The position numbers were made by a program, and so were the translations under genes. This document shows positions 1,223 through 21,331 of a stretch of DNA of 21,485 nt, piece after piece. Source of the DNA: a virus; IMG/VR virus record IMGVR_UViG_3300036985_004989, positions 1 to 21,485 of that record. One strand, written 5' to 3'. Numbering within the stretch: the first letter of the stretch is position 1; each line of letters opens with the position of its first letter. The notes beneath the pieces are model-generated. The model had not been told where the DNA came from and did not search any database. It was given only the letters and a program-made list of their open reading frames with translations.

Positions 1223-1777
1223 TTAAAAGTTATTCTTACTTATATTTCATTCTATAATTTCAATCAACTTACTTACATATCAATTCATTAAACTTCTTAA
1301 ATCGTTTATTTTATTCTTTTTATCATCTTCACTAAATATTATTTGATATACCTCTCAAAGAAATAATTTATAATCAACATTATTCAATAATATATGTCAT
1401 AAATCTCATGCTGGCGTATTAAAAGTGCTTAATTTTACTGCTTCGCTTTGTGTTATCTTTATATACTCATTATATAAATTCTTTTCTATTTGTGATCTTC
1501 TTTCTTTTAAATTATTATTATCTAATATCTGTTTAGCATATGTTATTTTTTTATATATATGTTCTTGTAGTATACAATTAAATAATATAATTGTTTGTTC
1601 TTTTTCTAATACCGTTTTACCAACATTCAACGATAACTGTTTGACACTATTAGCAATATCGTTCATCTTATCAAGGAAGAAATTGTTTTGCTTCATCTGT
1701 TGCTTTAACATTAAAAAAAATGATACTCATACAGCTCATAAGTTTATAAAAGGTTGGATTAGTTCTGTTGATTCCAT
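1223..1777 (-). CDS. Membrane-anchored coiled-coil protein, possible holin or spanin-like lysis protein
   Basis: 184 aa with TGA as Gly (7 of 8 glycines are TGA). Residues about 7-23 (IQPFINLGAVGVSFFLML) form one hydrophobic segment, followed by a polar helical region starting KQQMKQNN and LDKMNDIANSVKQL. One N-terminal membrane helix plus a charged helix recalls BhlA/UviB-type holin-like proteins, but this one is longer. The start ATG lies inside the end of the endolysin gene (19-nt overlap), so the two are probably translationally coupled. Position next to the endolysin supports a lysis role; the sequence alone does not prove it. Under the standard code only a 101-aa fragment would be seen. 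Confidence 0.7.
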
Positions 1778-2268
1778 TTGTCCATTATTACTAATAATTG
1801 ATATAACTCAATTTTTTCTAGTGGAGTATCTAAAGGAGTTGTTATCCCTTTTTCTTTTACTTTAGTAATAAGGTACTCAGCCCATTGAGGGATTTGTGGC
1901 ATGTTTATATCATTAAATAATATAGTACTGTCATTTTGAAAATGTGGTTTATCCCACCGCCATAAATCAAATCACCAAACAATCCCTGATTGTTTAGCTA
2001 TATCAGCGACTTTACGCCATATTCAATAATCTTTAGGATATAACTCTTTACCTAAAAATCAAATATCAATTGCTAATCAATCCTGATGCATTGACCGTTT
2101 AAGTTGGCTAGCCCCAGTTTTGATTAGCTCTTTCTGTCTCTCTTCGTTTCTCCATCATTCTACTACAAATATATTAAATCACGCTTTTTTACATTCAGTT
2201 AAAAAGAAATTAACTTTTCTTTTAAATCAAGCCTCTAATTTTGATAAATCCCTATTAGTAGTTGTCAT
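1759..2268 (-). CDS. M15-family L-Ala-D-Glu type peptidase, endolysin
   Basis: 169 aa, a usual length for a single-domain VanY/CwlK-like (M15) endolysin that cuts peptidoglycan stem peptides. The zinc and catalytic motif S59-x-H61-x-x-G64-x-A66-x-D68 (SMHQDGLAIDI) is complete, and the second metal ligand is H109 in DKPHF, preceded by the conserved VWGFD. G64 and G99 in these motifs are encoded by TGA, which is direct evidence for UGA=Gly. Seven of 11 glycines are TGA, so no functional enzyme could be made with UGA as stop. No signal peptide is seen, so release probably needs a holin. Its ATG shares one base with the stop of the upstream 40-aa membrane peptide, and its 3' end overlaps the next gene. 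Confidence 0.92.
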
Positions 2269-3969: not shown

Positions 3970-6900
3970 TTAGTAAGTTATATAATTAGTTAAAAATAAT
4001 GTATCATCTATTTTTAAGAATGAAAATAGATATTTTGTATTAATTGCAATTGTTGGAGCTGTACCACTCCATACTATATTAGCAGGAAATGTAATTGTAG
4101 GAGCAGTAGCTCAAGTAAATAGATAAACAACATATTCATTGCCATAATTACTAATAGCAGTTCATAAAGTTAAAGTGAAAGTAGTTCAATTTTGTGTTGT
4201 TGTTAAATTAGTGATTGTATTAGTTGCTAAAGTAATAGTACCACTAGACGCACTATTATCAACTTTAGCATAGGGAGGTGTAGCTGTTGGAGCTGCACTT
4301 GTCCATATTGTACCATTTGAAACCATTATATTACCACTTGTTCCATGTGCTGGGAATGTTTCATTAGCATTTGGAAGTGTAATTGTCTTTTCAGTACTAG
4401 CAGGTCAAGCAAATTTTGTGAACCCATTTCAAGTTCCACCATAAGTTGAAGCAATTACTTGTGTTAAATCAGCACTTCAATCGAATGCATTACCATATAT
4501 ATTTTTAGTAGCAGCTATTTTAGTAGCAGTTCCAGCATTTCCAGTTACAGATCAAGCTATTGCATTGGTACAAGTGATATCTGTCGTCCAAAGTTTAGCT
4601 AATCTTGTTCATGTTAAACCTATTGTTTGTGGCGTTGTTTGATTTGTTAATACTGCACCAGCAAGTGATGTTAAATATGTACTAGTATCTAAAGTAAATG
4701 TATTTGCTCAAGTCATTTTTACGAATGCTCAAGAAACATAACTTAATCATGATAACGAAGTTAAATTAGTAGATCATGCTTGTTTACCATTAAAAGTGTT
4801 CCAATCAGTACTAGTTAAATACCCACTCAATGTTGTTGTTGCTGCTTGTGTTGCTATTACCTGTTGAGCGGAGTTTAAATGATAATATTCTGAGGCAACT
4901 CATCATTGTATTCAAGATAAATCATTATGTATTGATGTAGCAGAAGAAGCAAATACAGTACTAAAAGCAGAATCTACTTGCGTTGCTGTACTAGCATTTT
5001 TTTGAACTATTATTCTTCAACATAAAACAGCATGTGAGCTTATAACACTTGGCAAACTAGGAGGTTGGCTTACTTGGGCTTGTGCTAGAGTAAAATCACC
5101 ACTACCTAAAACAATATATAAATGTTTTTGCAATTCTACTCATCTATATATCCAGTTTACAGCATATCTTCCATTACTTAATGTTTGTAATCATGTCCCA
5201 TTATCGTATTGAGTATTATTATATTGACTCTGGATTGAAGATGTCCATACTCAAGCAACATGATAATTAAAAAAACAATTATCAAGTGATGTGTCTATTG
5301 TATCAAGTGTTAATCAATTAGCTCAAGTCCATATAATTCAAGAGGTTAAGTTTATATTTCTTGTTCAAAATTCACTAATAGCTAAACCACTCTCTCTTCG
5401 ATATCGTTGTGTCTTTACAATTGATTGATGTAGTTTATTTGTTAATCATAATCATAGTGTTGTCCATGGTTGTACATGTAAATAAATTCCATTTCTATAT
5501 ATAGTATATACAGGTATAATATCACTTTCTGTGATTAAAGTTACATTTGTTATTACTCTTATGATAGGAGTTCATAAATTATAATCAGCTACTACATAAT
5601 TATTTGTATTATCAGTTAAAGCTAAATTAGTTACTGGTCATATTGTATATTTAATAGGTATTCAAGAGAATGTAGCATTATTAAACAAGACATAATCTTC
5701 ACTAGGAATGTTTATTGTTCAATCTCAATTATCAGTGTATGTTAATCAAGATGTAATTCCTCAATATAAATAATTAAATCTAGTATTTAATCAAGTATTT
5801 AAAAGATTTACTGTAGGATATTTAGTTGTACTTGTATTAATTATTGTATTTTCTTTATTACTAGTAGATTCAGCTATATAACCACCATCTTTTATTAATT
5901 TACCAGTACTTCCATTAAATAATACCACATTTCAGTCTTCTGCGACAGCTGGACCACTTACATCACCACCTCAAGCAGTAGATATAGCAGCTCTTACAGC
6001 TTTTTCTGTTGGTATATTACTATCAGTTCCTGGACTTCAAACAGAATTTACTACATCATATCAATCTCATATTGTACTAGTTCAAGTAAATTTAGGTAGT
6101 TTATTTGTTGTACCTGTTCAAGTTACGGGATTAGTTAAGGCATTTTGTTTTAAGCCTATATTACCATCTAATTTATTTATTGCTTGTAAAATTGTATCTG
6201 TTCAAGCTAACACACCACTTCAAGAACTAAATCATGTTATTAATTTTCATATTACAGATGCATTAGTAACTGTTGTAGCATTACCAACTGATGTTACTTC
6301 TCAAGTAAGATTAGCATTAGTTGTTACTGTTGCAGCGTTTCATGTTACTGAACCGTTTATTGCATTAGTTGCCGTAATATCAGTTGCCCAAAGTTTAGTT
6401 AATCTATTAGTTGTATCTCCTATTGTCTGTCAAACAGTTTGATCCTTAGTAACAAATCATGTTACAGCAGGAATATCACTTGTTAAAGCTATTGTTCCAG
6501 TTGCTGCTTGTAGCGTAGCTGTATAATCATTAGCACTTGTATTAGCATTGCTTATAATTGTTTTACCAGTACTTGTTCCTTTAGTTGATAATTTATCTTT
6601 ATCAAATATCTTTTCTCAAGTAACTGTTTGAACATTAGCTAATATCATATCACCATTTCCCGTAGGAGTAGCGAATGTTCCATCTCATCTTAAATATGTT
6701 GTAGTATTATTTGGAGGAGTAGGAACAGCTCATCATACAGTTGCAGTCATTACAGGTAAATCAGCTCAAGTAGCAATACTTGGTACTCATGTTGTTGTTG
6801 TATTCTTTAATATACCCGTAGATAATAAAGATAAATTAGTTCAATTAATACCAACTACTGTTAAAGCTCAACTCCCCGTAGCGTCTCAAGTATGTGTTGC

Positions 6901-7422
6901 ATTAGTTACTAGTCCACTATAAAGAGTATTTACTGAGTTATCTCATGTGTTAGTTCAAGTTGCTGTACCTCATCAAGTTGCTACATCAGCGTCGGATATT
7001 GCTGTATTAAGTTGTGCCACTGTAAAGCTTCAAAGACTTGTTGTATTTCATACCGAGGTAACATGTCAAGAAAGATTAGCATTAGTTGTTACTGTTGCTG
7101 CATTACCTGACACACTTCATGTAATAGTATTTGTTACTGTAACATCATTAGCCCAAAGTTTAGCCAGCCTATTAGTTGTGTCTCATATTGTTTGAGGTGT
7201 TGTTTGATCAAGGTTTACTTTGCCAGATATATCAGTGGCAAAAGCTACTTGTTTAGCACCTCATGCTGGATCATAAACTGCTGATTGCATATCTCAAGTT
7301 CAAGTTCAAGTTGAACTCCAGATTACTCAAGTTTCTGTTGGATTTACTGTTAATGCTTTAAAAGCATTACCTGTTAAATCAGGTAATGTTTGCCCATTAC
7401 GAGCTATTGCGTATCAAGACAT
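3970..7422 (-). CDS. Long tail fibre protein, 1150 aa (UGA=Gly)
   Basis: A single open frame of 1151 codons only when TGA is sense; every triplet was checked for TAA/TAG in the left half. In the N-terminal half more than half of the glycines are TGA (about 45 TGA to 33 GGN). Signature fibre phrases appear with Gly at TGA: NLTGEVTSVGNATTVTN, AGTDTILQAINKLDGN, TGTGTTNKLPKFTGTST, HNDLSGIQGG, SGYLTSTDWNTFNGKQ, TATKIAATKNIYGNAFDG and ASTYGGTGNGFTKF. A module built on QTIGDTTNRLAKLW occurs three times (see repeats). The middle section (about residues 540-720) lacks such repeats and is richer in aromatic residues, and may be a globular domain. Probably a trimeric fibre for host attachment. Confidence 0.9.
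4561..4647 (-). repeat. Fibre module copy 3 (QTIG..T.RLAKLW)
   Basis: Third copy of a roughly 28-codon module in the long fibre: TPQTIGLTGTRLAKLWTTDI, followed by AIAGSVTGNAG. The other copies lie at about 6361-6444 and 7127-7215. The copies are clearly similar at both DNA and protein level but not identical, pointing to old duplication of a shaft unit. Confidence 0.7.
6361..6444 (-). repeat. Fibre module copy 2 (QTIG..TNRLTKLW)
   Basis: Second copy: GQTIGDTTNRLTKLWATDI, followed by AINGSVTGNAATVTTNAN. The downstream TVTTNANL segment is also shared with copy 1, so the duplicated unit extends to about 60 codons between these two copies. Confidence 0.7.
7127..7215 (-). repeat. Fibre module copy 1 (QTIG..TNRLAKLW)
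   Basis: First copy from the N-terminus: TPQTIGDTTNRLAKLWANDV, followed by SVSGNAATVTTNANLSG. It differs from copy 2 mainly at wobble bases and conservative residues. Confidence 0.7.
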
Positions 7423-7943: not shown

Positions 7944-7970
7944 AAAAGGGAGGGCTAACCCTCCCCTTTT
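7944..7970. terminator. Strong GC hairpin terminator, possibly bidirectional
   Basis: Inverted repeat AAAAGGGAGGG / CCCTCCCCTTTT with a 4-nt loop; one C is bulged. It has A-runs and T-runs on both sides, so it can act as an intrinsic terminator in either direction. On the minus strand it lies 8 bp after the HNH stop codon. It stands out as the most GC-rich stretch in the region. Late transcripts coming from the capsid genes must read through it to reach the fibre genes, since no promoter is visible in the 26 bp before the next gene. Confidence 0.8.
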
Positions 7971-7977
7971 ATTTGTT

Positions 7978-8538
7978 TTAAGCTTTTGTTTTATTAAGTT
8001 TGGTTATATAGTTGTTCATTCTTTTAGTGATTTTAATTTTAAGTATCCAAATAAATTTTTTAATAGGGTCTTTCATATATAGATGTACTTGTCCTTTATA
8101 AAATTTTGTAGGACTTATTTCACAATGTTGATGCTGAGTTAATAATTGTAAGTTTTCTATTCTATTATCATCTCTAATACCATTTATATGATGAACATGT
8201 TCATTTGTTTTTAAATATCTTCCAATATTTTGTTCAATTATATATCTATGTTCTCTTATTAAACCATCTCTATCACAATTAGGGTGTTTTGGCATTCTAA
8301 TTCTGATATAACCATCAATATCTTTTATTCTTTGTTTATAACTTAATTCTCTACATTCTTTAGAACAAAATAATTGACAATGCCCTATTTTTAATGTATT
8401 TATTTCTGATATAAAATCTTTTCCACATCCTTTACATTGTTTAGTATAAAATTTATCTTTACACTCTTTAGAACAATATTTTCTGAAACCTTTTATAGTA
8501 GGTTTAAATTCTTTCTGACAATACTTGCATAATTTCAT
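7978..8538 (-). CDS. HNH endonuclease with two zinc knuckles, probable homing endonuclease
   Basis: 186 aa from the ATG at 8538, chosen because it follows the usual TTTAAATATATG leader; a longer frame to 8595 overlaps the promoter. Residues 1-30 (MKLCKYCQKEF, then YCSKECKDKF) and about 34-66 (CKGCGKDF, then FCSKECRE) hold two CxxC...CxxxC zinc sites. The catalytic HNH_3-type core is EHVHHINGIRDDNRIENLQ. Such proteins nick or cut DNA and spread as free-standing mobile genes in phages. None of its glycines is TGA although neighbours use it, and it has its own promoter and terminator. Both point to a separately acquired cassette. Confidence 0.85.
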   Translation of the reverse strand: MKLCKYCQKEFKPTIKGFRKYCSKECKDKFYTKQCKGCGKDFISEINTLKIGHCQLFCSKECRELSYKQRIKDIDGYIRIRMPKHPNCDRDGLIREHRYIIEQNIGRYLKTNEHVHHINGIRDDNRIENLQLLTQHQHCEISPTKFYKGQVHLYMKDPIKKFIWILKIKITKRMNNYITKLNKTKA

Positions 8539-8545
8539 ATATTTA

Positions 8546-8565
8546 AAGTTAAATAATATTAACTT
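8546..8565. promoter_or_regulatory. Inverted repeat at HNH transcription start, candidate operator
   Basis: AAGTTAA-6-TTAACTT, a perfect 7-bp inverted repeat, lies just downstream of the predicted -10 of the HNH promoter and 8 bp before the HNH start codon. It could be a repressor site or a hairpin in the leader that hides the start codon. Confidence 0.45.
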
Positions 8566-8566
8566 A

Positions 8567-8595
8567 ATTGTATAGAAACTATGCTGTAATGTCAA
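8567..8595 (-). promoter_or_regulatory. Predicted promoter of the HNH gene
   Basis: Minus strand TTGACA (8595-8590), 17-bp spacer, TACAAT (8572-8567). The -35 is a perfect match and the -10 matches at five of six positions. It lies in the 81-bp gap after the capsid gene and gives the HNH gene its own expression signal. Confidence 0.6.
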
Positions 8596-8619: not shown

Positions 8620-9558
8620 TTATGCCGTAATTCAAACTATACCCCTATAATCAATTACTCCGGCAGAAGCTGCGTAATCAAATCTATATGTTTCTCCACC
8701 TGTTGTTGTTTTTGTTTTATCAAGTGTAACCATAGTTGGGGCAATTGATTCAAGGTAAGTTAATGTATGGAAAAGTTTATCTCCAATTAAATAACAAGTT
8801 GTATCACTACCTCCTACTACTGATGACAAAAATCCCCAACTTACTGGATTGATTGTACCACTATCTGCATTTTGAATATTTGTTTTGCCATTTAATGGAT
8901 TATCGTATCGGTTAGCTGTACTTGGTGAGCCATCTGATTGAAGTATTTTTCGTGCTTCGTAAATCAATGCTGGTGGAACAATTAAATGAGATCCGTTTAT
9001 AGCACCAATGATTCCGTCATGATCTTTTAATTCAAATAGTTTTTTGATTGCTAATTGTAAGTTAGATTCAGTGAAACCTCCAGTTACAATGTTTGATTGT
9101 ACTGTTCCAGTTGTACCAATTTTATGATTAGCATTTAAAAGTGATAATCAGTCCCAACATAAAGAAGTCGTTACAGATCCTCTTAATACTTGTGCCATGA
9201 TATCATCTTTAGTTTGCATCATTCGGTAACCAGCTCGTGAAGCTTCTCGAGTGATAACATCCATGTTATCAAATCGTTTCATTAATTGTGAGTATGGTAA
9301 TTCTTTTTTGAATACTCGTTGAGAAATCATTAAAGATCCAATTTCATTTAAATCTACTTGTGGGTATGCTGCATTTTCTGAAACTTCAGATAATAATCAC
9401 ATACCAGTGTTTACCGCAAAGAGTTCATCTTTACGTTTAGGAGATGTTACATTGAAGAACATATCCCCTACAGGTTTATACATGTTTGCTCCTGATAGAA
9501 ATGATTCAAGAACTTTCATATTAGTATTTAAACTCTGATTCGAGGTTAAAGTAGCCAT
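8620..9558 (-). CDS. Major capsid protein, Mu gpT-like
   Basis: 312 aa. The central phrase CWDGLSLLNANHKIG, then VTGGFTESNLQLAIKKLFE, DHDGIIGAI and HLIVPPALIYEARKIL match the Mu-like head subunit (gpT) family, which has the HK97 fold. The C-terminus RFDYAASAGVIDYRGIVGITA also fits. Only 3 of 27 glycines are TGA (after M52, in CWDG, and in IVG), yet these three would split the gene into fragments under the standard code. It follows two capsid accessory genes and the probable scaffold. The low TGA use in the most abundant virion protein suggests selection for the faster GGN codons. Confidence 0.88.
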
Positions 9559-11686: not shown

Positions 11687-12313
11687 TTATAACTTAAATC
11701 ATAGTAAATATATCTTATACGACGCATTCTTTTTAGTCAAGTTCATTATTGATAACTCATTTATGTAATTACCTATTATACTATAATTTCGATTATCGAT
11801 TATATACTCTTTTTCTATCATTATTTTATGCTCTTTCTGTTCTCACATAGAGTTATAATCCTCTATTAATATTATTCTAGTGCAATAGTATCAATCAAAT
11901 TGACATTTAAAATTTTCATGTCAATAAAACATTCATCTGTATATAACAGTATCTCAATAATCTCCTTTATCTCATCTAATTCACACTCAAGTTTCTCATT
12001 GATCTCATTTAGGTCATTGTGGTCAAACAATAGTGTCTCATTTATCACCTTTTAATCATTTTTCTCATCTATATCATTGTTTTCATTCTATACTTTCCCC
12101 TTTATCACCTTTATCTCATTTGCATTTACTGATAAAGTTATCATCATTTATTAATATTTCTTTAATATCAGATATTACTTTATTAGTATCACAATCTTTT
12201 CAATCCTTACCGTTATTACCGTCAATTCAAGGCACTCATTGAATACCTTGAGGTCATCTATATATTTCATCAAGTTGTGTATCAGAATTTCAAGATCGAG
12301 CTAGTGAGTGCAT
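11687..12313 (-). CDS. Collagen-like protein (G-X-Y repeats written with TGA)
   Basis: 208 aa. Residues about 24-41 (GPQGIQGVPGIDGNNGKDG) and about 63-118 (GDKGDKGES, then GYRGEKGLKGDKGD, GPQGPKGDQGETG and GDKGDYGD) are collagen triple-helix repeats. Twenty-four of 32 glycines are TGA, spaced exactly every third codon, so UGA must be glycine: no other residue forms a collagen helix. The last 90 residues (from MFYGHENF) are a non-repetitive tail with several Tyr and Ile, perhaps a trimerisation or anchoring domain. The start is the ATG one base after the portal stop. Collagen-like phage proteins are usually fibres or head/neck appendages; the place after the portal suggests one of these. Confidence 0.9.
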
Positions 12314-12314
12314 A

Positions 12315-14459
12315 TTATTTTCAGATATTATTTGCAGTTTGTGAATTTGCTAGTTGTCATGGTTGGTTTGGTTCTGTCATTGTTGGGCTAGGTATTCATT
12401 GTAGGTTTTGTGGTACTTGTCATTGTTGTATTGGTGTTTGCATTGGTACTGCTTTGTTATCATTTTGTGCGTATGATGATTTTAAATTCATTAATGAGTT
12501 GTTAAGGAAATTCTCAAACATCATCTTTTGTTGTACATTGAAATTTTTGTATGTTTGTTTATCTTTCTCATCAATGATTATTTGTATATCATCAATTGTT
12601 GGTGTTTCTAGTGGTATTGGTTCAATACTTAATGATATAGCCTCAATAGCTTTATCTATATTATCCATAGTGTTTTTATTCAATGTTGGGAATATATTGC
12701 GTGTATCAAGGTTAAGTTTTTCAGCCATTGATTTGATCATTGCAAATAAATCAATTTTAGTATTAAGATCAGGCATTATTTGTAGTGTTTGCATTAATGT
12801 ATTTAAGAAAGTCATTGTATTCTTAATTGTATCCTCATTTTCATCCCCCTCAGTTATATTATCTTTAATGATAATCTTATAATCAACACTAAATATATCT
12901 TTAACTAACTCAAACGAATCATTATAATTAGGTGTTTTATCAAATTTAGGTATTCTTGTTCATCTTGATCCTTGTGCAACTTTAAATCCTTCTACATCTA
13001 CCATGATTGGTTTCTTATTTTTCCTATCTTTAAGCAAGAATTGTTTTAATAATTCTAAAATCATTTCTGTTTCATATCGTACTGCTTCATATTCTTGCAT
13101 TTTAACCATAGCTTTTAAGCGTTTGGTGAGAATTCTCTCTTTATATGCAGTTTGTGTAGCTAATTGATTAGGATTTGAATATAGACCCCTTGCGTCGTCT
13201 CATATCGCTACTGTCATTTCGTCTCCTAGTATATTTCTAAAGTTTAAATAGTTTTGATCAAGGCTTCCTACTTCTAAAGGCATAATACTATCTGATAGTT
13301 TACCTCATTTAAGTCCATTAACTCTTAGCATTGCCCCAGGTTGTAATTTTTGTTTACCTGGGTTAAAATCAACATCACCACTAATAAATAAAGGTCGTTG
13401 CAATAAGAATTTCATATTCTCCATTGCTAACTGGTTTAATACATCATTATTAATGATAAGATTGTAAACTATTTCTAGTACTCAATTAGCCCACACGCTA
13501 TCATTACGAGGGTAAAACTTATAATGAACATAAGGTAATTTCTTATGATTGAACTCTAAACGACTATCATAAATTGGAATACCATTAGCACACATAACCA
13601 TTAGATCTACTTCTTGATTATAGTATGTGTATAAATGGACATATTCACCAGCCGTAAGGGTAGTGTTTTGACTGTTTTCTTCCCAGAATGGCGTAATAAC
13701 TGCATTATAAAATGATACATCGCGGCTAACCCCAGAAACAAGATCAGTATTACGATATTTAGGATTGTTTCCATAATATTTTTTAAAATAAGATATAGGT
13801 ATAATTCTATCCTCAGTACAGTCTCTAGCTCTAATATATGAAGCCTCATCATGTAAAGTCAAAGCTGTTTCATCTATAAAGAATCGTCTTGGGTCAACTC
13901 TCCGTGTATAGATTTGTTCTTTTAGTGATGCCTTAGGTTTGAAATTACCTTCATCGTCTCTTAAATATACATCAGCATCATCACTCTCATATCCGACATA
14001 TTTAATTCCGTTACCGAAATCAATACAATCAGTGAGCATTCGTGCATGTTCTGTGTAGTAGTTTCCTTCCCTTTTAAGATAATCAACAGTGTATTCAAGA
14101 GCTTGTGCACACATTTGGGATTTATCATCTCATGATTTACCAATAGCTTTTATTTTTACTTTAGCTATATTATCAAGTAACTCAGAATAAAATCGTTGTG
14201 ATATACCAAAAGCAGTAGGAAACCTAATACCAGCGTTATAATCCTCTCATTTATCAAGTAGTCTTAGATAAGAGTCTTTGAAGTCTTGTAATCTGTTCCA
14301 CCGTTGTTGCACTCTTACTTTCTTATAGATTTGTTTTACAACTCTTAGTGTGACAAATTGTTGAAGATCTCTGTCTTTATCTGACATTGATCACATCTTT
14401 CATTTAGTAGGATTAGATTGGTACATTTGCAATATTTCATCTAAATTTAAATCATCCAT
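12315..14459 (-). CDS. Portal protein, 714 aa
   Basis: 714 aa with 12 TGA of about 35 glycines. The order after large terminase, and phrases like YTRRVDPRRFFIDETA, ARDCTEDRIIPISYFKKYY and the long helical part LATQTAYKERILTKRLKAM, match large portal proteins of the P22-like kind, which form the dodecameric DNA gate of the head. The C-terminal 60 residues are Gln/Pro/Asn-rich (QTPIQQGQVPQNLQGIP), as in barrel or linker tails. The start ATG (14459) has the ATTTAAAAAATATATG leader. Without TGA as Gly only two fragments of 210 and 131 aa would appear. Confidence 0.82.
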
Positions 14460-14671: not shown

Positions 14672-15952
14672 TTAATAAGTAAATTCTTGGTATCAATAGT
14701 TATCCTCATAAATATTATTATCTTGTTTTACGCTATTGTCAAGTGGTACCTTCTCAAATTGCCAACAAACAAGTGCAAGACTCATTACTCTATCATCATG
14801 TATATTAGTAGGACTAACTATCTTTATTTTAGTTCACAACTCATTTAGTTCATATCTCATTGCTCTTAACTCATTAAACAACTCCTCATCATTATTTAAC
14901 CATATTTTACCATTCTCAAGAAATATTTGCAAGTTTCTTAGTAATTGATCCTTACTTTTTTCACTAAATGTAAATGGATATACATTAGGTATCTTACGAC
15001 TCAAGTAATCATAGAACGGTTGTCCTGGTCATGTTGCATCCATAACTATTTCAGGTTTATCATACCTTCTCCATATAGCCTCTATACGAGCCTCACTATC
15101 AGGATATTCACTTCGTCACCATCTTTCTTGTGTTATTACTCTACCAGTATTAGCATTAAGCACTGTTAAAACTGTATAATCTCCACCATGTCAAGCAATA
15201 TCAAGTCCTATTCTACATTTAGTTCATAAATCATACTCACCTTGATATACTCTACTTTCCAAGTCTCTAAATACTTGTGATGCTCCCTCTAAGAATTTTA
15301 CCATATATTCCTGATCAAACATATCTTGAGACATTTCTCTTTTTTCTTGTTCTATTACTTCATTGCTCAATACATTCGTTTGAGTACAATCTTTAATCAT
15401 AACAAACCACCTATCACTTTCCTTATTCTTTTGTATTAATTCCCATGCGTGATTCATACCTTTAGGAGTAAACGAGAAAGTAGCACTACCACCATTCTCA
15501 GCTAAGATTGGTCTTAATGTTTCCCAAACTTCTGGTCTTTGTTCAGCATACTCATCAAACTTAATATCAATAGGATTAGTACCTCGTAATCTATCATAGT
15601 TCTCACTTCCAACTAATTGTATTATACTTCAATTAATAAGTGTTATATTTAACTCACTAGCATTAACTGATTTAATTATCTGTGGTGGTATATAGTCAAG
15701 CATCTTCATACTAGTTCTAGAATCAATTGCATTCCATATAATCTTCTTACACATTTCGTAAGTAGGCTCGACAAAATAATATAATCACATCTTGCTTATA
15801 GCTCTCTTAATTGTATCTTGCCATAACATTAATGTTTTACCAGCACGACGATGTAATACAACAATAGCTCTCTTAATTCATCAATCAAGAGAAGCATGAT
15901 AATCTAACTGATAAGGTCTTGGTGTATACTTATAAGGTATTGTTATCTCCAT
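14672..15952 (-). CDS. Terminase large subunit (ATPase and nuclease)
   Basis: 426 aa, typical length. ATPase: adenine-binding YTPRPYQLDYH near residue 9, Walker A HRRAGKT 34-40, Walker B IDIKFDE 128-134, coupling motif FSFTPKG 159-165. RNase H-like nuclease: D251 in RIGLDIAGHGGD, D305 in VMDATGPGQ, and a C-terminal HDDRVM. Several motif glycines (for example in DIAGH and DATGPG) are TGA; 10 of 24 glycines are TGA. It packages DNA into the prohead with the portal. It overlaps the small terminase by 23 nt. Confidence 0.93.
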
Positions 15953-16298
15953 TTATTTTAGAATAATCAATTACATTAATTGTGTGTGTTACTGTTGCAT
16001 CAGTCTCTGTCTTTATACTAAACTCATTCTTATTCTTACGCTCTAACCACCATCTACTATTAAACTCATCTTTCTTTTCTATACTATTAATAATATTCAT
16101 TTTAGCTCTTAATGACGGCGTTTGTTTTAATATTTCTTTCTCTTCAACGAACTCAGGATGTCGACTGCAGAAATCGTAAAATGTTCTTTCCCCTACATTA
16201 CAAAACAAAAGTGCTTCCTTATCGTTTAAACCCATTGCAAAAGCCTTTTTAAATTCATTTAGTTTATCTTCAGTCATCACTGTTGGCTTTCCTGTCAT
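15930..16298 (-). CDS. Terminase small subunit
   Basis: 122 aa. The N-terminal helix-turn-helix reads KLNEFKKAFAMGLNDKEALL, then FCNVGERTFYDFCSRHPEF, followed by the oligomerisation helix and the hallmark SRWWLERKNKNEFS near residue 82. This is the usual layout of small terminases that recognise the pac/cos site. No TGA; four GGN glycines. It overlaps the large subunit gene and starts 5 bp after the NinG-like HNH gene. Confidence 0.83.
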   Translation of the reverse strand: MTGKPTVMTEDKLNEFKKAFAMGLNDKEALLFCNVGERTFYDFCSRHPEFVEEKEILKQTPSLRAKMNIINSIEKKDEFNSRWWLERKNKNEFSIKTETDATVTHTINVIDYSKINGDNNTL

Positions 16299-16303
16299 AT
16301 ATT

Positions 16304-16660
16304 TTATATATTAATTATATATTTATTAAATATTGCTTCATAGTCAGTATTCTTCTTTATGGTCATTGCTTCCCTATGTAGTTTCTCCAGTATATCTTTA
16401 CCGTATTCCTCTTGTAGTCTTAGAGCGTATATAGGGTAATTACCTTTTTTAAATACATTACAACCTACACATTGACAATGACAATTTTCTTCGGAATATC
16501 TAGTACCTAAATGTGATCTGCTTTCATAGTGTCCACATTGTGATTCACTAGGTTTCATTTGTTTACCGCAAGTATAACAAGTATGATTATCTCTATTCCT
16601 TATAAACTTAGAGAATACATTATCAGCTTTATCCCTTATTTTAATAATTGATTTAGTCAT
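16304..16660 (-). CDS. NinG/Rap-like HNH protein
   Basis: 118 aa. The layout KADNVFSKFIRNRDNHTCYTCGK, then SQCGHYESRSHLGTRYSEEN, then CHCQCVGCNVFKKGNYPIY resembles the lambda NinG (Rap) family, with zinc cysteines (CYTC, CVGC) and the GHY...N...CN HNH-like core. Family members act on recombination intermediates; HNH proteins beside terminase genes can also help packaging. Six glycines, none TGA. The start overlaps the end of the 47-aa gene by 8 nt. Confidence 0.8.
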   Translation of the reverse strand: MTKSIIKIRDKADNVFSKFIRNRDNHTCYTCGKQMKPSESQCGHYESRSHLGTRYSEENCHCQCVGCNVFKKGNYPIYALRLQEEYGKDILEKLHREAMTIKKNTDYEAIFNKYIINI

Positions 16661-16823: not shown

Positions 16824-16897
16824 TGGAGCGGGTAATGAGATTCGAACTCATGTTAAAGGTGTTGAAGACCCGTGAACTACCACTGTTCTATGCCCGC
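16824..16897 (-). tRNA. tRNA-Gly(UCA), decodes UGA
   Basis: A 74-nt cloverleaf including encoded CCA. Acceptor GCGGGCA pairs with TACCCGC (one C-A mismatch at 6-67). D arm GAAC/GTTC with GG in the loop. Anticodon stem CGGGT/ACCTT with loop CTTCAAC gives anticodon UCA (16865-16863). T arm ATGAG/CTCAT with loop TTCGAAT. The discriminator is U73. G1-C72, C2-G71, G3-C70, U73 and C35 are the main bacterial glycyl-tRNA identity elements, so it should be charged with glycine and read UGA. This agrees with the glycine positions in the genes. It is in the operon before NinG and terminase, and its first 10 nt overlap the end of an 86-aa gene. Confidence 0.93.
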
Positions 16898-17148
16898 ATT
16901 AATTTCCTTTCTTCTTTAAGTATTCAGCTATATTTTTTTATCTCATCATAATCATTGTTTATAATATAATAAAATAACTTATTAATATATTCAGGGGTAA
17001 CTGTTAATGTGTAAATCTTATTTATTCAATCAATTACTGACACACTTGTTGTTAATACTTTTCAATCTCTTTTAAATGTAAGTATACCATCATAACAGTC
17101 ACCCTTATAATCTATAATCTCATCATATATTAATCCATTACATATCAT
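16888..17148 (-). CDS. 86-aa protein, unknown; ends inside the tRNA gene
   Basis: 86 aa from ATG at 17148 with three TGA (KRDGKV, VIDGINK, YSGIL) and three GGN glycines. Mixed strand and helix; YTLTVTPEYINKLFYYIINN may be a folded core. Its TAG stop lies in the 5' part of the tRNA, so tRNA processing would cut this message. It is the first clear TGA-using gene downstream of the operator promoter. No family recognised; coding is supported by its length and the placing of TGA at plausible glycines. Confidence 0.5.
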
Positions 17149-17173
17149 AATTGTATCTCTAATATATAAATTA

Positions 17174-17437
17174 TTACCCGTAATGTTTCATTTCATTTAT
17201 TATTCTTCTTACTACATTACCTATCTCGTGTCTAAAATTATTTATAAAATCAGGTCCGTTACATTCGATTATTTGTTCTACCCTTTTAGCGAATACCGGT
17301 GAATTCAAAACATCTTCAACATTAGATTCTTTTTCTTTAAGTTCGAAGTATTCTCTTTTAGCGTCTTGTTCAGAATGATAACCTAAATAATCATCATCAA
17401 TAGTTTCAGTTAAATTGTGTTCATAGTGTCTATTCAT
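17174..17437 (-). CDS. 87-aa acidic protein, unknown
   Basis: 87 aa: MNRHYEHNLTETIDDDYLGY, then KREYFELKEKESNVEDVL and a helical end NNFRHEIGNVVRRIINEMKH. No TGA, four GGN glycines. No family recognised. It lies 19 bp after the 58-aa gene in the operator-controlled operon. Confidence 0.6.
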   Translation of the reverse strand: MNRHYEHNLTETIDDDYLGYHSEQDAKREYFELKEKESNVEDVLNSPVFAKRVEQIIECNGPDFINNFRHEIGNVVRRIINEMKHYG

Positions 17438-17456
17438 AGTATAAATTATTAATAAA

Positions 17457-17633
17457 TTAATCTACTAACTTTGCTACTCCTTGTTGTATTAAATTTTGTT
17501 CTTTTGATTTCTCGTATAGAGTTTTATATATCTTATCTTTAAATTCGTGTGTATCTATATTCTTTATATGATCTAATGGTTTAATATTCATGATTATATC
17601 ATAAATTTCATTGTTAAACATTCATTTTTCCAT
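17457..17633 (-). CDS. 58-aa protein, unknown; TGA at codon 4
   Basis: The frame starts ATG GAA AAA TGA ATG: as UGA=Gly it reads MEKGMFNNEIYDIIMN (58 aa); if UGA stops, a 54-aa protein can start at the ATG directly after it. The rest is helical and charged (FKDKIYKTLYEKSKEQNLI). It is the first gene after the operator promoter at 17659-17686. The real start cannot be decided from sequence. Function unknown. Confidence 0.55.
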
Positions 17634-17649
17634 TATATTTGTTTTAATT

Positions 17650-17666
17650 TGTATACACAGTATACA
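17650..17666. promoter_or_regulatory. Palindromic operator over the -10 of the middle-operon promoter
   Basis: TGTATAC-3-GTATACA, a perfect 7-bp inverted repeat, covers the -10 hexamer of the promoter at 17659-17686. A dimeric repressor or activator bound here would control the operon with tRNA-Gly(UCA), NinG-like and terminase genes. A single GTATAC is also present at the -10 of the early leftward promoter (19615-19622). Confidence 0.55.
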
Positions 17667-17686
17667 TTTTTATTATTTATTGTCAA
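17659..17686 (-). promoter_or_regulatory. Predicted promoter of the tRNA/terminase operon
   Basis: Minus strand TTGACA (17686-17681), 16-bp spacer, TATACT (17664-17659). Perfect -35 and five-of-six -10. It starts right after the stop of the 92-aa gene and drives the 58-aa gene and everything downstream. Confidence 0.68.
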
Positions 17687-17951
17687 TATCTTTTAAATTA
17701 GGGAACAATAAAGAATTATGTATCATGTCATCAAGGATAATTCTCTCTTTTAAATTATCTATAACTTTTTTAATTACTTCATGCTTAATTTTACCATTAC
17801 ATAATACTATTATCTCATCTAAACATTGTTTAAGTATATCAACTTTTAGACGATAATGTCTAAGTTCACCTACACTAGTATTAAATAAGTCCTCATAATG
17901 AACTCTCATTTCTTTATTAAATTTAAGAGAAGCTTTTATATTTTTAGTCAT
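17673..17951 (-). CDS. 92-aa helical protein, unknown
   Basis: 92 aa: MTKNIKASLKFNKEMRVHYE, then VDILKQCLDEIIVLCNGKIK and VIKKVIDNLKERIILDDMIH. All-helical, basic, without recognised domain. Two GGN glycines, no TGA. It begins after TTATTAATTTATAAATATATG, a clean example of the AT-rich non-Shine-Dalgarno leader. Last gene of the early leftward block. Confidence 0.62.
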   Translation of the reverse strand: MTKNIKASLKFNKEMRVHYEDLFNTSVGELRHYRLKVDILKQCLDEIIVLCNGKIKHEVIKKVIDNLKERIILDDMIHNSLLFPNLKDIDNK

Positions 17952-17980
17952 ATATTTATAAATTAATAATTAAATTCTTA

Positions 17981-18820
17981 TTAAACCCTTATTGTTGAAT
18001 ATTTTATATCCTCATAATAATCTTTATTTTCTCTATACCTTTCATGTTTAAAACATAATTCCCTACATCCTATATAACTATTACCAAACCCTTTTGATTT
18101 CTCCCAATCACCAGCTTTCTTATAAGTACTTGTTTGAAAATGAAGTTGTGTTTTATGTTTAATATTACCAAAATTATCTATATAAATAATTTCATTAGTC
18201 ATTTCCCAATCACTATGTAAGTGTCCCGAACATATAATATCAGCGTCAATCATTGATGATCTACGACTAGCCCCAATTACTCCTTTAGTTACTGGACTAT
18301 TACCTCCACTACCATGAGTATAATATAAAGTTTTAATATAATTTATATTACCTCTACCAACAATTTCAAACTTAAATTTAATAAACCCTGTATAGTCTCC
18401 GATTAATACTTCTCTCCCCTCTAATTTCATTCCTAAAGCAAAGTTATTTAATAAAGATAATTCATGCCTTTGGCTTACACTTATTTCATGATTACCAGTA
18501 CTAACAAATTTTATATCATAATTTTTAAAGAATCTTACAGCGTCAGCAACAATTGAATCAAAGTAATTACCATTACAATATTCCTTTCGTATATCTTTTT
18601 TACCTGTACGAGGATCAAACTTAGCACCCATAGCATCAAATAAATCTCCTATTATAATAATAGGTACTTTTTTTTCTTTTGCATTATCTAAATCATATTT
18701 TAGTTTACGCCTATCACAATCAATAGAATCAAAATGTATATCAGACATAACTAATATACTGCTTCCCCCCTTATAAGGAGAAATAATATCCATGTAATAA
18801 CAATCATTTTTTTTGTACAT
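17981..18820 (-). CDS. Calcineurin-like metallophosphoesterase
   Basis: 279 aa with the full set of dimetal motifs: SDIHFD near residue 26 (DxH), GDLFDAMG near 58 (GDxxD), STGNHE near 107 (GNHE), THGSGG near 169 and SGHLH near 197 (GHxH). Such phage enzymes may act as nucleases (Mre11/SbcD-like), nucleotidases or RNA-modifying phosphatases; the substrate is not evident. A cysteine-containing C-terminus (YIGCRELCFKHERYR) is extra. All 24 glycines are GGN; not one TGA. In the early block, so likely a DNA metabolism or host takeover role. Confidence 0.85.
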   Translation of the reverse strand: MYKKNDCYYMDIISPYKGGSSILVMSDIHFDSIDCDRRKLKYDLDNAKEKKVPIIIIGDLFDAMGAKFDPRTGKKDIRKEYCNGNYFDSIVADAVRFFKNYDIKFVSTGNHEISVSQRHELSLLNNFALGMKLEGREVLIGDYTGFIKFKFEIVGRGNINYIKTLYYTHGSGGNSPVTKGVIGASRRSSMIDADIICSGHLHSDWEMTNEIIYIDNFGNIKHKTQLHFQTSTYKKAGDWEKSKGFGNSYIGCRELCFKHERYRENKDYYEDIKYSTIRV

Positions 18821-18845
18821 ATAAATAAATTAAAAATAAAATAAA

Positions 18846-19037
18846 TTAATTACCACCATACCTTTTCTCTTCTTCATCACCGATCAATTCTTTATTTGTC
18901 CATCTTCCAAACCTCTTTTTACAATCAAGACAATTCCACTCACTAATACCATCATAATTATTAGGACTATCCCAAGCATACTCAACGCCAATTAAATTTT
19001 CACTGCCACAGCTAACACATTTTTCAATATATTCCAT
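18846..19037 (-). CDS. 63-aa zinc-ribbon protein
   Basis: 63 aa with CVSC near residue 7 and CLDC near residue 36, a four-cysteine zinc ribbon; the motif SEWNCLDCKKRFGRW resembles small nucleic-acid-binding or regulatory ribbons found in phages. Seven glycines, all GGN. It is 1 bp from the 85-aa gene upstream and 25 bp from the phosphoesterase gene. Function unknown; possible transcription or DNA-binding factor. Confidence 0.68.
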   Translation of the reverse strand: MEYIEKCVSCGSENLIGVEYAWDSPNNYDGISEWNCLDCKKRFGRWTNKELIGDEEEKRYGGN

Positions 19038-19038
19038 A

Positions 19039-19296
19039 TTAATTATTTTGTTCTTTTATTATAATATCAAGTATAACCGGATCATGTTTAGAATTATAAA
19101 CATCTAATCTTTCCATTATAGTATAAAACAAATTTTTTAATGCAATACATTGTGCCTCACAATATTCTAAATTATCATCAATTTCAAATACTTCTTGCAC
19201 TCTTGTATACCCTTCTTCTTCATCATTATAAACACAATTATTAGAAGAAAGAATAAAACCGTTACTTACCTTTTTAATTTCTAAAGTGTTTTCCAT
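19039..19296 (-). CDS. 85-aa acidic protein, unknown
   Basis: 85 aa from the ATG at 19296, chosen for its TTAATTTATATATG leader; a longer frame upstream runs into the previous gene. MENTLEIKKVSNGFILSSNN, then EIDDNLEYCEAQCIALKNLF. An N-terminal beta-hairpin and a C-terminal helix are likely. Two GGN glycines. No family recognised. Confidence 0.6.
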   Translation of the reverse strand: MENTLEIKKVSNGFILSSNNCVYNDEEEGYTRVQEVFEIDDNLEYCEAQCIALKNLFYTIMERLDVYNSKHDPVILDIIIKEQNN

Positions 19297-19303
19297 ATAT
19301 AAA

Positions 19304-19585
19304 TTAATTAAAATATTTATTGATAATAAAAATAGCTCCATCAGGATTCTTTCCATGGAGTAAGTATTCATAAGTCCATGCTCTAATCCTCTCAAAAGAC
19401 TCCTTTATTGATTTATCACCATCTACTTCTTTAACTAATTTTAAATACATTTCTTCACTCCATCCTAAAGAGAAACATAAACTAGGTATAGTTAATGGCA
19501 TATAGTTTATACCATCCCATCTACCATTATTTATAAACTTCTTTGAATCGAAGTAATCATTGATTGATTTTTCTAATACATTCAT
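19304..19585 (-). CDS. 93-aa small-terminase-like DNA-binding protein
   Basis: 93 aa from the ATG at 19585. The order MPLTIPSLCFSLGWSEEMYL (helix-turn-helix), then SFERIRAWTYEYLLHG and the end KNPDGAIFIINKYFN follows the pattern of P22 gp3/Terminase_6-like small terminase or related HTH proteins. Since a separate small terminase lies beside the large subunit, this one may be an early regulator or a second DNA-recognition protein. Six GGN glycines, no TGA. First gene behind the early leftward promoter. Confidence 0.62.
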   Translation of the reverse strand: MNVLEKSINDYFDSKKFINNGRWDGINYMPLTIPSLCFSLGWSEEMYLKLVKEVDGDKSIKESFERIRAWTYEYLLHGKNPDGAIFIINKYFN

Positions 19586-19615
19586 ATAAATAAAATAATA
19601 AATAACTTGATATAA

Positions 19616-19644
19616 AGTATACACTTTTTTCTATTAAAAGTCAA
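19616..19644 (-). promoter_or_regulatory. Early leftward promoter
   Basis: Minus strand TTGACT (19644-19639), exactly 17 bp, TATACT (19621-19616). It drives the small-terminase-like gene and the early block. The -10 lies within GTGTATACTT, sharing GTATAC with the operator at 17650-17666. Confidence 0.72.
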
Positions 19645-19689: not shown

Positions 19690-19830
19690 CATTTTAATAA
19701 ATCCACTAGATTCTTTTTTAAACCCATTGTAATTAGTCGACATCATACAACTAGGAGGAAAAATCTTAAACCTTTTCGTGGGAGCTTTTTTCGATAGGGG
19801 GTATCTAAACCACTTAAAAGCATAAACCAT
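19675..19830 (-). CDS. 51-aa basic ORF, possibly leaderless; or a non-coding RNA
   Basis: ATG at 19830 to TAA at 19675: MVYAFKWFRYPLSKKAPTKR, then FKIFPPSCMMSTNYNGF. Very basic, aromatic-rich. The predicted transcription start falls within a base or two of the ATG, so translation would be leaderless; the stop lies in the loop of the terminator hairpin. No TGA, glycines GGG and GGA. Its codons (CCC, ACG, AGG, TCG) are unlike its neighbours, so the transcript may instead be a small RNA of about 170 nt. Coding status is open. Confidence 0.4.
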   Translation of the reverse strand: MVYAFKWFRYPLSKKAPTKRFKIFPPSCMMSTNYNGFKKESSGFIKMVYMN

Positions 19831-19834
19831 ATAT

Positions 19835-19862
19835 AGTATATAGATATATTTTAAATTGTCAA
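19835..19862 (-). promoter_or_regulatory. Inner leftward promoter of the short transcript
   Basis: Minus strand TTGACA (19862-19857), 16-bp spacer, TATACT (19840-19835). Its -35 is 22 bp from the -35 of the rightward promoter, back to back, so a single regulator could control both. Confidence 0.62.
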
Positions 19863-19884
19863 TATATTATTATTAATTTTTCAT

Positions 19885-19913
19885 TTGACTTTATTTCTTA
19901 TATAGAGTATAAT
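19885..19913 (+). promoter_or_regulatory. Rightward promoter, near-perfect sigma70 consensus
   Basis: TTGACT (19885-19890), 17-bp spacer, TATAAT (19908-19913), only one base off full consensus. The predicted start near 19918-19920 is exactly the first strand of the 13-bp helix of the structured RNA. It should be very strong in any sigma70 host. Confidence 0.8.
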
Positions 19914-19938
19914 GGTTTTGCGCATATAAGTAATTCAA

Positions 19939-19975
19939 ATTAGATTCTAATATTCTAAAAGCTATTAGATTCTAA
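19939..19975 (+). repeat. Two direct copies of ATTAGATTCTAA
   Basis: Exact 12-bp copies at 19939-19950 and 19964-19975, 25 bp apart; the core TTAGATTCTAA is itself a near-palindrome. They lie in the first loop of the structured RNA, so they may be RNA hairpins or DNA operators just downstream of the rightward promoter. Confidence 0.6.
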
Positions 19976-19993
19976 AAGAGTTAAAACTCAAAT

Positions 19994-20047
19994 AAACCGA
20001 CACTATCTTATATGCGCAACAATTAAGAGCTATAGTGTCGGTTTTTT
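19994..20047 (+). terminator. Terminator (or attenuator) 22 bp before the rightward genes
   Basis: A 13-bp perfect stem AAACCGACACTAT/ATAGTGTCGGTTT with a 25-nt loop, followed by TTTTTT. The loop contains the 3' strand of helix A, so pairing of A with A' competes with or accompanies terminator folding. This is the layout expected of regulated termination. Confidence 0.75.
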
Positions 20048-20069: not shown

Positions 20070-20393
20070 ATGAGGGCACATTCTAATAGAAAAATTTTAC
20101 TATTATTTGTTGAACAAAATGGTAAATGTTATTATTGTAAAGATGATTTAATACATGATTGTATTAATAATAAAAGTCCTCAAATAGATCATATAATACC
20201 AAAAAAAGAATCTATTAATAATTGTATTAATAATTTATGTTTAACTTGTAGTTATTGTAATACAGCCAAAGGTAAAAAAAGTGAATCAGATTTTCTAAAA
20301 TATATAGAGCCTTATTTATTAAATAAATGTGAAAAAAGAAATTTAAGAAAATATAATTTAATGCTAAATTTAAATAACAATTTTATTAATTAA
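20070..20393 (+). CDS. Small HNH endonuclease
   Basis: 107 aa. KCYYCKDDL near residue 18 and LTCSYCNTAKGKKSESDF near 58 are the zinc cysteines of a treble-clef HNH domain, with the catalytic QIDHIIPKKE between them (near 38-47). Such proteins are DNA nickases or endonucleases. It is the first gene downstream of the structured RNA and 11 bp before the initiator gene. Two glycines, both GGN. Confidence 0.8.
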   Translation: MRAHSNRKILLLFVEQNGKCYYCKDDLIHDCINNKSPQIDHIIPKKESINNCINNLCLTCSYCNTAKGKKSESDFLKYIEPYLLNKCEKRNLRKYNLMLNLNNNFIN

Positions 20394-20404
20394 TTTAAAA
20401 ATAT

Positions 20405-21331
20405 ATGTCTATTTTACACAAAGTTAACAAAGAGCGTTGGACAACCATAGACGCTTCTATTATAAATGATGAAAGGTTGTCAATTAAATCATTCGGATTA
20501 TTAGTCAAGATTTTATCTTTACCAGATAATTGGCATTTCAATGAATCTGGACTACAAACAGTATTCAATATTGGTAAAGATCAATTATCTTCATCACTAC
20601 ACGAATTGGAAGAAACAGGATATTTATTAAGAAAGAAAGTAAGAAATGAAAAAGGTCAATTTGGATTAATAGATTGGTTTATTTCAGAAGAAAGAGATTC
20701 TTTACTTTGGAAAAATATTAAAGATGATGATTATCCGGTACAGGAAATACCGGTACAGGATTATCCACTACCGGAAAACCCGATACCGGTTAACCCGCAA
20801 CTATATAATACTAATATAATCAATACTAAAGAAACTAATACTAATATATTAAATACTAATATAATAGAAAAAAATACTAAAAAAGAAATTACAAGTTTAT
20901 CAATATTAGAAAATACATCAGAAACACTAAAAAATAAAATAGAAGAATTTATTGAATATAGAAAAGAAATAAAATCACCCCTTAAATCTTTCGGCCTTAA
21001 GGCTTTAATATCAAAACTAGATAAACTATCAGGAGGAGATGAAAAAACGAAATTAGACATATTAGACGAGTCTATGGCTAATGGTTGGAAAGGAGTGTTT
21101 GAACAGAAAAACTTTGGTAATGGTAAATCTAATGGAATATCAAATTCACAAAAAATGTTTATATTACAGAAACAAGCAGAATTAATGCAGAAAGTTAATA
21201 AAGAAATAGAAAGATGGACAGTTGCTGGAGCTGATAATGAATATATTGCTAAAATAATAAAAAAAGATTTTGGTTATTTATTTATAGGATTAGGAATTAA
21301 ATTTGATTATGATACATTAAAGCCATTTTAA
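20405..21331 (+). CDS. DnaD-like phage replication initiator
   Basis: 308 aa. The N-terminal winged helix (RLSIKSFGLLVKILSLPDNW, then SSLHELEETGYLLRKKV) is that of phage replisome organiser proteins. Residues about 108-160 are a linker of five-residue repeats (DYPVQ, EIPVQ, DYPLP, then NTNII, NTKET, NTNIL). The C-terminal part (IEEFIEYRKEIKSPLKSFG, then MANGWKGVFEQ) resembles the DnaD-type domain of such initiators that loads helicase. All 18 glycines are GGN. The linker DNA carries candidate origin repeats, as in lambda O. Confidence 0.8.
   Translation: MSILHKVNKERWTTIDASIINDERLSIKSFGLLVKILSLPDNWHFNESGLQTVFNIGKDQLSSSLHELEETGYLLRKKVRNEKGQFGLIDWFISEERDSLLWKNIKDDDYPVQEIPVQDYPLPENPIPVNPQLYNTNIINTKETNTNILNTNIIEKNTKKEITSLSILENTSETLKNKIEEFIEYRKEIKSPLKSFGLKALISKLDKLSGGDEKTKLDILDESMANGWKGVFEQKNFGNGKSNGISNSQKMFILQKQAELMQKVNKEIERWTVAGADNEYIAKIIKKDFGYLFIGLGIKFDYDTLKPF
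20735..20880 (+). repeat. 15-bp-period repeats and DnaA-box-like site in the initiator gene, candidate origin
   Basis: CCGGTACAGGA occurs at 20735-20745 and 20750-20760 (15 bp apart). TTATCCACT (20761-20769) matches the DnaA box TTATCCACA at eight of nine bases. AATACTAA-type units start at 20807, 20822, 20837, 20852 and 20873: spacings 15, 15, 15 and 21. An AT-rich stretch follows. Iterons, a DnaA-like box and AT-rich DNA within an initiator gene are the features of a phage origin; the 15-bp period also encodes the pentapeptide linker, so selection at protein level is an alternative. Confidence 0.5.

Follow-up and report, generated by a model that had tools for sequence, protein, structure and literature searches.

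Why would a phage carry a single tRNA whose anticodon, UCA, reads UGA, and which amino acid does that tRNA bring? The question arises from the window, by which we mean the whole stretch that was analysed, a virus record of 21,485 nucleotides. ARAGORN finds exactly one tRNA in it, on the minus strand and with anticodon tca, and the first 10 nucleotides of this tRNA overlap the 3′ end of an open reading frame whose stop codon coincides with tRNA positions 8-10:

16824-16897, minus strand: tRNA-Gly(UCA) with encoded CCA (ARAGORN, Rfam; identity bases from the sequence)
16888-17196, minus strand: 102-codon ORF with four UGA codons, directly upstream of the tRNA (ORF reading)

Read off in segments, the tRNA is 5′ GCGGGCA U A GAAC AGUGGUA GUUC A CGGGU CUUCAAC ACCUU UAAC AUGAG UUCGAAU CUCAU UACCCGC U CCA. 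The Rfam tRNA model (RF00005) matches it with 58.1 bits, twice its gathering score of 29 (E 1.9e-10), which indicates a complete tRNA fold despite two stem mismatches, C6-A67 in the acceptor stem and C27-U43 in the anticodon stem, the latter of which leaves an anticodon stem of 4 bp. Single-strand folding recovered the acceptor, anticodon and T arms, with a folding z-score (-1.26) that by itself is not significant. A preliminary description of the locus had proposed a phage-encoded tRNA with anticodon UCA and the glycine identity elements G1-C72, C2-G71, G3-C70, U73 and C35; the two programs bear out the former, and every one of the latter is found in the sequence. Indeed, UCA combined with these three pairs and U73 is what the published identity-base rule specifies for the tRNA-Gly(UCA) of code 25 (PMC8629427). 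ARAGORN labels the tRNA 'SeC' because of its UCA anticodon only; the 7-position acceptor stem and 4-nt variable loop rule out a tRNA-Sec, there being neither an extended acceptor/T-arm helix nor a long variable arm. Similarly, the tRNA-Trp(UCA) of code 4 has G73 and A1-U72 and goes with UGA at Trp positions, whereas the phage tRNA has U73 and G1-C72, and UGA is not Trp here.

The meaning of UGA can be read from the surrounding genes. Judged by gene content, the contig is a tailed phage of bacteria, with terminase subunits, portal, capsid, collagen-like tail protein and M15 endolysin on one side and NinG, Mre11-like, HNH and DnaD/O-like replication initiator genes on the other:

1759-2268, minus strand: M15-type endolysin, 7 UGA (profile match)
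3970-7422, minus strand: tail/fibre-like ORF of 1150 codons, 72 UGA (ORF reading)
8620-9558, minus strand: major capsid protein, 3 UGA (profile match)
11687-12313, minus strand: collagen-like tail protein, 24 UGA in Gly-X-Y register (profile match)
12315-14459, minus strand: portal / head-tail connector, 12 UGA (phrog_332)
14672-15952, minus strand: terminase large subunit (TerL), 10 UGA (PHROG phrog_2)
15930-16298, minus strand: terminase small subunit, no UGA (profile match)
16304-16660, minus strand: NinG-type endonuclease, no UGA (profile match)
17174-19624, minus strand: UGA-free early-type genes, including Mre11-like at 17981-18820 (profile match, codon count)
20070-21331, plus strand: UGA-free HNH endonuclease and DnaD/O-like replication initiator (profile match, codon count)

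No tRNA synthetase or release factor gene was seen in this partial genome. A further UGA-free HNH endonuclease gene (7978-8595) lies within the UGA-rich late region beside a strong hairpin (7948-7965) and resembles an inserted homing endonuclease, and the tail/fibre-like ORF contains a 157-nt direct repeat, 75% identical (6273-6429 and 7038-7194).

The coding density of the whole contig is 0.34 with UGA as a stop and 0.86 with UGA as sense, and treating UAG as sense brought no such rise; the contig therefore needs UGA as a sense codon. On the late side 178 in-frame UGA codons occur in 5545 codons, and UGA serves as the stop codon in 0 of 30 complete genes. Ten residues were put in turn at the UGA positions of TerL, the endolysin and the collagen-like protein, and each translation was compared with profile libraries. 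Glycine was the best of the ten in TerL (109.9 bits, with Asn second at 108.3) and in the endolysin (36.3, with Ala second at 30.7), and in the collagen-like protein it scored 31.6 while the other nine residues gave no match. For the portal and capsid, where only Gly and Trp were compared, the profile scores were 57.0 versus 41.0 and 45.9 versus 39.3, respectively. When UGA was aligned as X in TerL, the columns of UGA codons 25, 56 and 108 held Gly in 54/69, 71/78 and 72/78 standard-coded relatives; several UGA codons of the divergent C-terminal half, where the alignment is poor, fell outside Gly columns. In the collagen-like protein the Gly position of Gly-X-Y is filled alternately by UGA and GGN, and the glycine of the endolysin HxxGxAxD motif is encoded by UGA. 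By these sequence comparisons UGA is glycine in this phage, and the pairing of recoded genes with a dedicated tRNA on one contig, as the preliminary description had it, is upheld by independent tests. The code is not that of Absconditabacterales, in which CGA and CGG are Trp, since both codons score higher as Arg than as Trp in TerL, portal, capsid and endolysin; the Absconditabacteria code as given in PMC8629427 likewise differs, CGA/CGG not being Arg there.

It is highly improbable, given these scores, that the tRNA reads UGA as tryptophan, cysteine or selenocysteine. The ARAGORN label would fit such a reading, as would the anticodon arm: in BLAST searches against bacterial genomes the T arm and acceptor end lead to tRNA-Gly and the anticodon arm, which is similar to theirs, to tRNA-Trp and tRNA-Cys. 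However, Trp and Cys score clearly lower than Gly in TerL, endolysin and collagen-like protein, Trp does so in portal and capsid as well, and UGA at Gly-X-Y positions is incompatible with either residue. At the level of codon meaning this reading is already contradicted, and the Trp or Sec identity that the preliminary description had set against its own assignment is contradicted too by U73 (Trp's base being G73), by G1-C72, by the absence of the long variable arm of Sec and by UGA not standing at Trp positions. The anticodon arm itself (16855-16871) is nearly identical to that of some tRNA-Trp and tRNA-Cys genes and shares C27-U43 with a Chitinophaga tRNA-Trp, a likeness that may stem either from convergence towards the reading of UGN codons or from a mixed origin. 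We do not claim a recombined Trp-Gly tRNA, because the arm is near both Cys and Trp and such convergence is possible.

Other phages use UGA in the same way. For example, the phage IMGVR_UViG_3300033509_000087 (L141), whose TerL is a different one, reads UGA as Gly and has in-frame UGA codons in almost every gene; it encodes its own tRNA at 1261-1332, with a UCA anticodon, GCGG acceptor and U73. Similarly, IMGVR_UViG_3300028914_000551 (L179) is a fragment of a UGA=Gly phage in which the terminase Walker A glycine is encoded by UGA; no tRNA was found on this 14-kb contig. In a quick tree of 80 TerL relatives the window lies on a long branch in a clade of 19 rows whose other members are standard-coded, and the UGA-coded L179 lies in another clade. 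A phage contig that is not UGA-dense (IMGVR_UViG_3300009537_000070) carries at 15149-15220 a UCA tRNA with a GCGGG acceptor and apparently A73. In a tRNA cluster of Streptococcus sp. LQJ-218 (NZ_QQRU01000007.1, about 596-666) a tRNA-Gly body has the anticodon TCA where TCC is expected, which is either a naturally occurring allele resembling a UGA suppressor or an error of sequencing. A strict tRNA pattern retrieved nothing relevant from IMG/VR and GTDB except this Streptococcus allele; a looser one matched mostly tRNA-Leu(CAA), and one with a GCAG acceptor matched none. A UGA-collagen pattern gave 120 stretches, none UGA-coded among those examined. Single-sequence searches of IMG/VR for relatives of TerL and Mre11 gave none, nor did a portal search, run without a positive control, of annotated phages and 395 genomes of Chitinophaga's phylum; for the window phage the searches turned up no close relative.

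The distribution of UGA within the window raises the further question of whose code this is. From 17174 onward none of 67 glycine codons is UGA, versus 178 of 414 in the rest of the contig (Fisher 2e-15; 2e-5 by a beta-binomial allowing for gene-to-gene variation), a partition whose boundary was chosen after inspection of the data and in which 'early' is inferred from gene function. Absence of the recoded codon from early-type genes and its frequency in late-type genes is the pattern of code switching, with the same post hoc boundary, and the tRNA sits near the border between the UGA-free module and the UGA-rich part. On the late side of the tRNA the terminase small subunit and NinG genes also lack UGA, but they have only 10 glycines together; capsid genes use UGA little, here as in L141. 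The partition is not a rule for UGA=Gly phages, since L141 and L179 hold UGA in nearly all genes, including the NinG of L179. Codon usage is otherwise alike in both parts, with 15 other families showing no strong difference and only Pro (CCG) and Arg differing; early-type and late-type genes have leader sequences before ATG in common, and five small unrelated ORFs of the module are also without UGA. A chimeric contig was dismissed because the leader motif and most codon usage are common to both parts.

Signals around the genes bear on the host. A Shine-Dalgarno-like motif precedes 0 of 27 starts (10.6% at random sites), and Bacteroidota likewise lack Shine-Dalgarno sites. In SR1 genomes 2-7% of genes have them (PMC10783764). 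Four near-consensus sigma-70-type promoters were found versus 0.21 expected (0/100 shuffles), all within or beside gaps of the early-type module:

17659-17686, minus strand: predicted promoter TTGACA-16-TATACT, closest to the tRNA among the strong upstream sites, overlapping the last codons of ORF 17673-17951
19616-19644, minus strand: predicted promoter TTGACT-17-TATACT
19835-19862, minus strand: predicted promoter TTGACA-16-TATACT
19885-19913, plus strand: predicted promoter TTGACT-17-TATAAT

The Bacteroidota-type promoter TTTG/TAnnTTTG showed no enrichment in the contig. A Bacteroidota host, which the missing Shine-Dalgarno sites and the NinG matches to Bacteroides phages had raised, is disfavoured by these two promoter results. 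The host is probably of Gracilibacteria type (class JAEDAM01) rather than from Absconditabacterales, an assignment that fits because Shine-Dalgarno sites are missing, the promoters are of sigma-70 type and no gene stops at UGA. Between the divergent promoters, the intergenic stretch 19740-20046 contains a patch richer in G+C as well as an inverted repeat, ACCGACACTAT...ATAGTGTCGGT, with Ts after it; the stretch is possibly a small RNA, attenuator or control site.

The reading that we favour, at a probability of roughly three in four, is that a tailed phage of a UGA=Gly (NCBI code 25) bacterium carries its own tRNA-Gly(UCA) to supplement the pool of its host. The JAEDAM01 bacterium would itself read UGA as glycine, and a sigma-70-type promoter within the replication/repair module, just before most of the UGA-rich virion genes, would probably drive the phage tRNA. 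GlyRS of the host could then charge this tRNA with glycine by way of its first three acceptor pairs and U73, and the charged tRNA would read UGA in late-type genes, adding to the host pool when demand presumably peaks. Beside the tRNA, the glycine scores, the Arg scores of CGA/CGG and the host signals, this reading draws support from the UGA=Gly phages L179 and L141, the latter equipped with a UCA tRNA, and from the precedent of RSA-ATP1; against it stand the standard-coded nearest TerL relatives, the TerL UGA codons that fall outside Gly columns and the lack of UGA in early-type glycine codons, for which such a host offers no obvious reason. The preliminary description had left a choice between autonomous recoding and reinforcement of the host's code, and the balance now leans to the second on account of the absent Shine-Dalgarno sites, the sigma-70-type promoters and the lack of UGA stops; an autonomous switch is possible, because the early-type module holds no UGA, but less likely.

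Such an early/late switch has been proposed for recoded phages of standard-code hosts: UGA-free early genes would be expressed first, the phage tRNA would accumulate, and the UGA-rich late genes would then become readable. The partition itself, the closeness of the tRNA to the module boundary, the largely shared use of other codons and the standard-coded TerL relatives all fit. However, not even the early-type genes stop at UGA, though these are few (8), and the missing Shine-Dalgarno sites and sigma-70-type promoters fit SR1-like hosts, with Bacteroidota disfavoured. The boundary, moreover, is post hoc and 'early' an assignment by function, and to our knowledge UGA is known as Gly only in JAEDAM01. 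It is unlikely that a phage of a standard-code host independently reassigned UGA to Gly in its late genes, with UGA-free early genes forming a translational switch and a tRNA that joins a Gly acceptor/T arm to a Cys/Trp-like, UGN-reading anticodon arm.

Alternatively, the host may use code 25 while the UGA-free module was acquired recently from standard-coded phages, in which case the partition would record history rather than regulation. The set of Mre11, NinG, HNH and replication initiator genes also occurs in the standard-coded phage OP947163, the two parts are unlike in their use of Pro CCG and of Arg codons, and a UGA-free HNH gene is found within the late region too. We consider a recent acquisition quite unlikely, in view of the 15 similar codon families, the shared leaders and the UGA-free small ORFs; it departs from the favoured reading of a code-25 host only in the cause of the module's lack of UGA. 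That module is the unusual part of the phage, and timing, history or a standard-code host may be the cause. Why replication and repair genes exclude UGA is a puzzle that can be tested: should timing be the cause, the tRNA would gate late translation, whereas a historical cause would make the exclusion a record of how a standard-coded phage lineage moves into a code-25 host.

The UGA=glycine code is known from two groups of tiny bacteria, Absconditabacteria and Gracilibacteria. Their tRNA-Gly(UCA) has the same anticodon, acceptor pairs and U73 as the phage tRNA, which differs in being phage-borne, in its Trp/Cys-like anticodon arm and in its C27-U43 mismatch. A phage tRNA-Gly(UCA) is already a known kind, a point absent from the preliminary description, since RSA-ATP1, a phage of an Absconditicoccaceae bacterium, has been published, and its authors call it the first patescibacterial phage with such a tRNA (mBio 2026, PMC13059738). 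RSA-ATP1 resembles the window phage in using UGA for Gly in virion genes and in bearing its own tRNA-Gly(UCA), and both gene lists include NinG, Mre11, DnaD-like and HNH; RSA-ATP1 has four tRNAs to the window's one, and CGA/CGG are Arg in the window phage, unlike in the Absconditabacterales code. Code-25 and code-11-compatible phages of Gracilibacteria and Absconditabacteria have also been described (mBio 2023, PMC10746230); like the window they have in-frame UGA in virion genes and little use UGA as a stop, whereas the window contig is mixed, its late-type genes being rich in UGA and its early-type module free of it. Phages that switch code in standard-code hosts by means of suppressor tRNAs (UAG to Gln, UGA to Trp) share with it recoded late genes, early-type genes free of the recoded codon and a phage suppressor tRNA; here, in contrast, the amino acid is glycine and the host code is probably altered as well. 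Together, the window and L141 suggest that phage tRNA-Gly(UCA) recurs in unrelated phages, and phages of code 25 may often supply a UGA decoder themselves although one is already present in the host.
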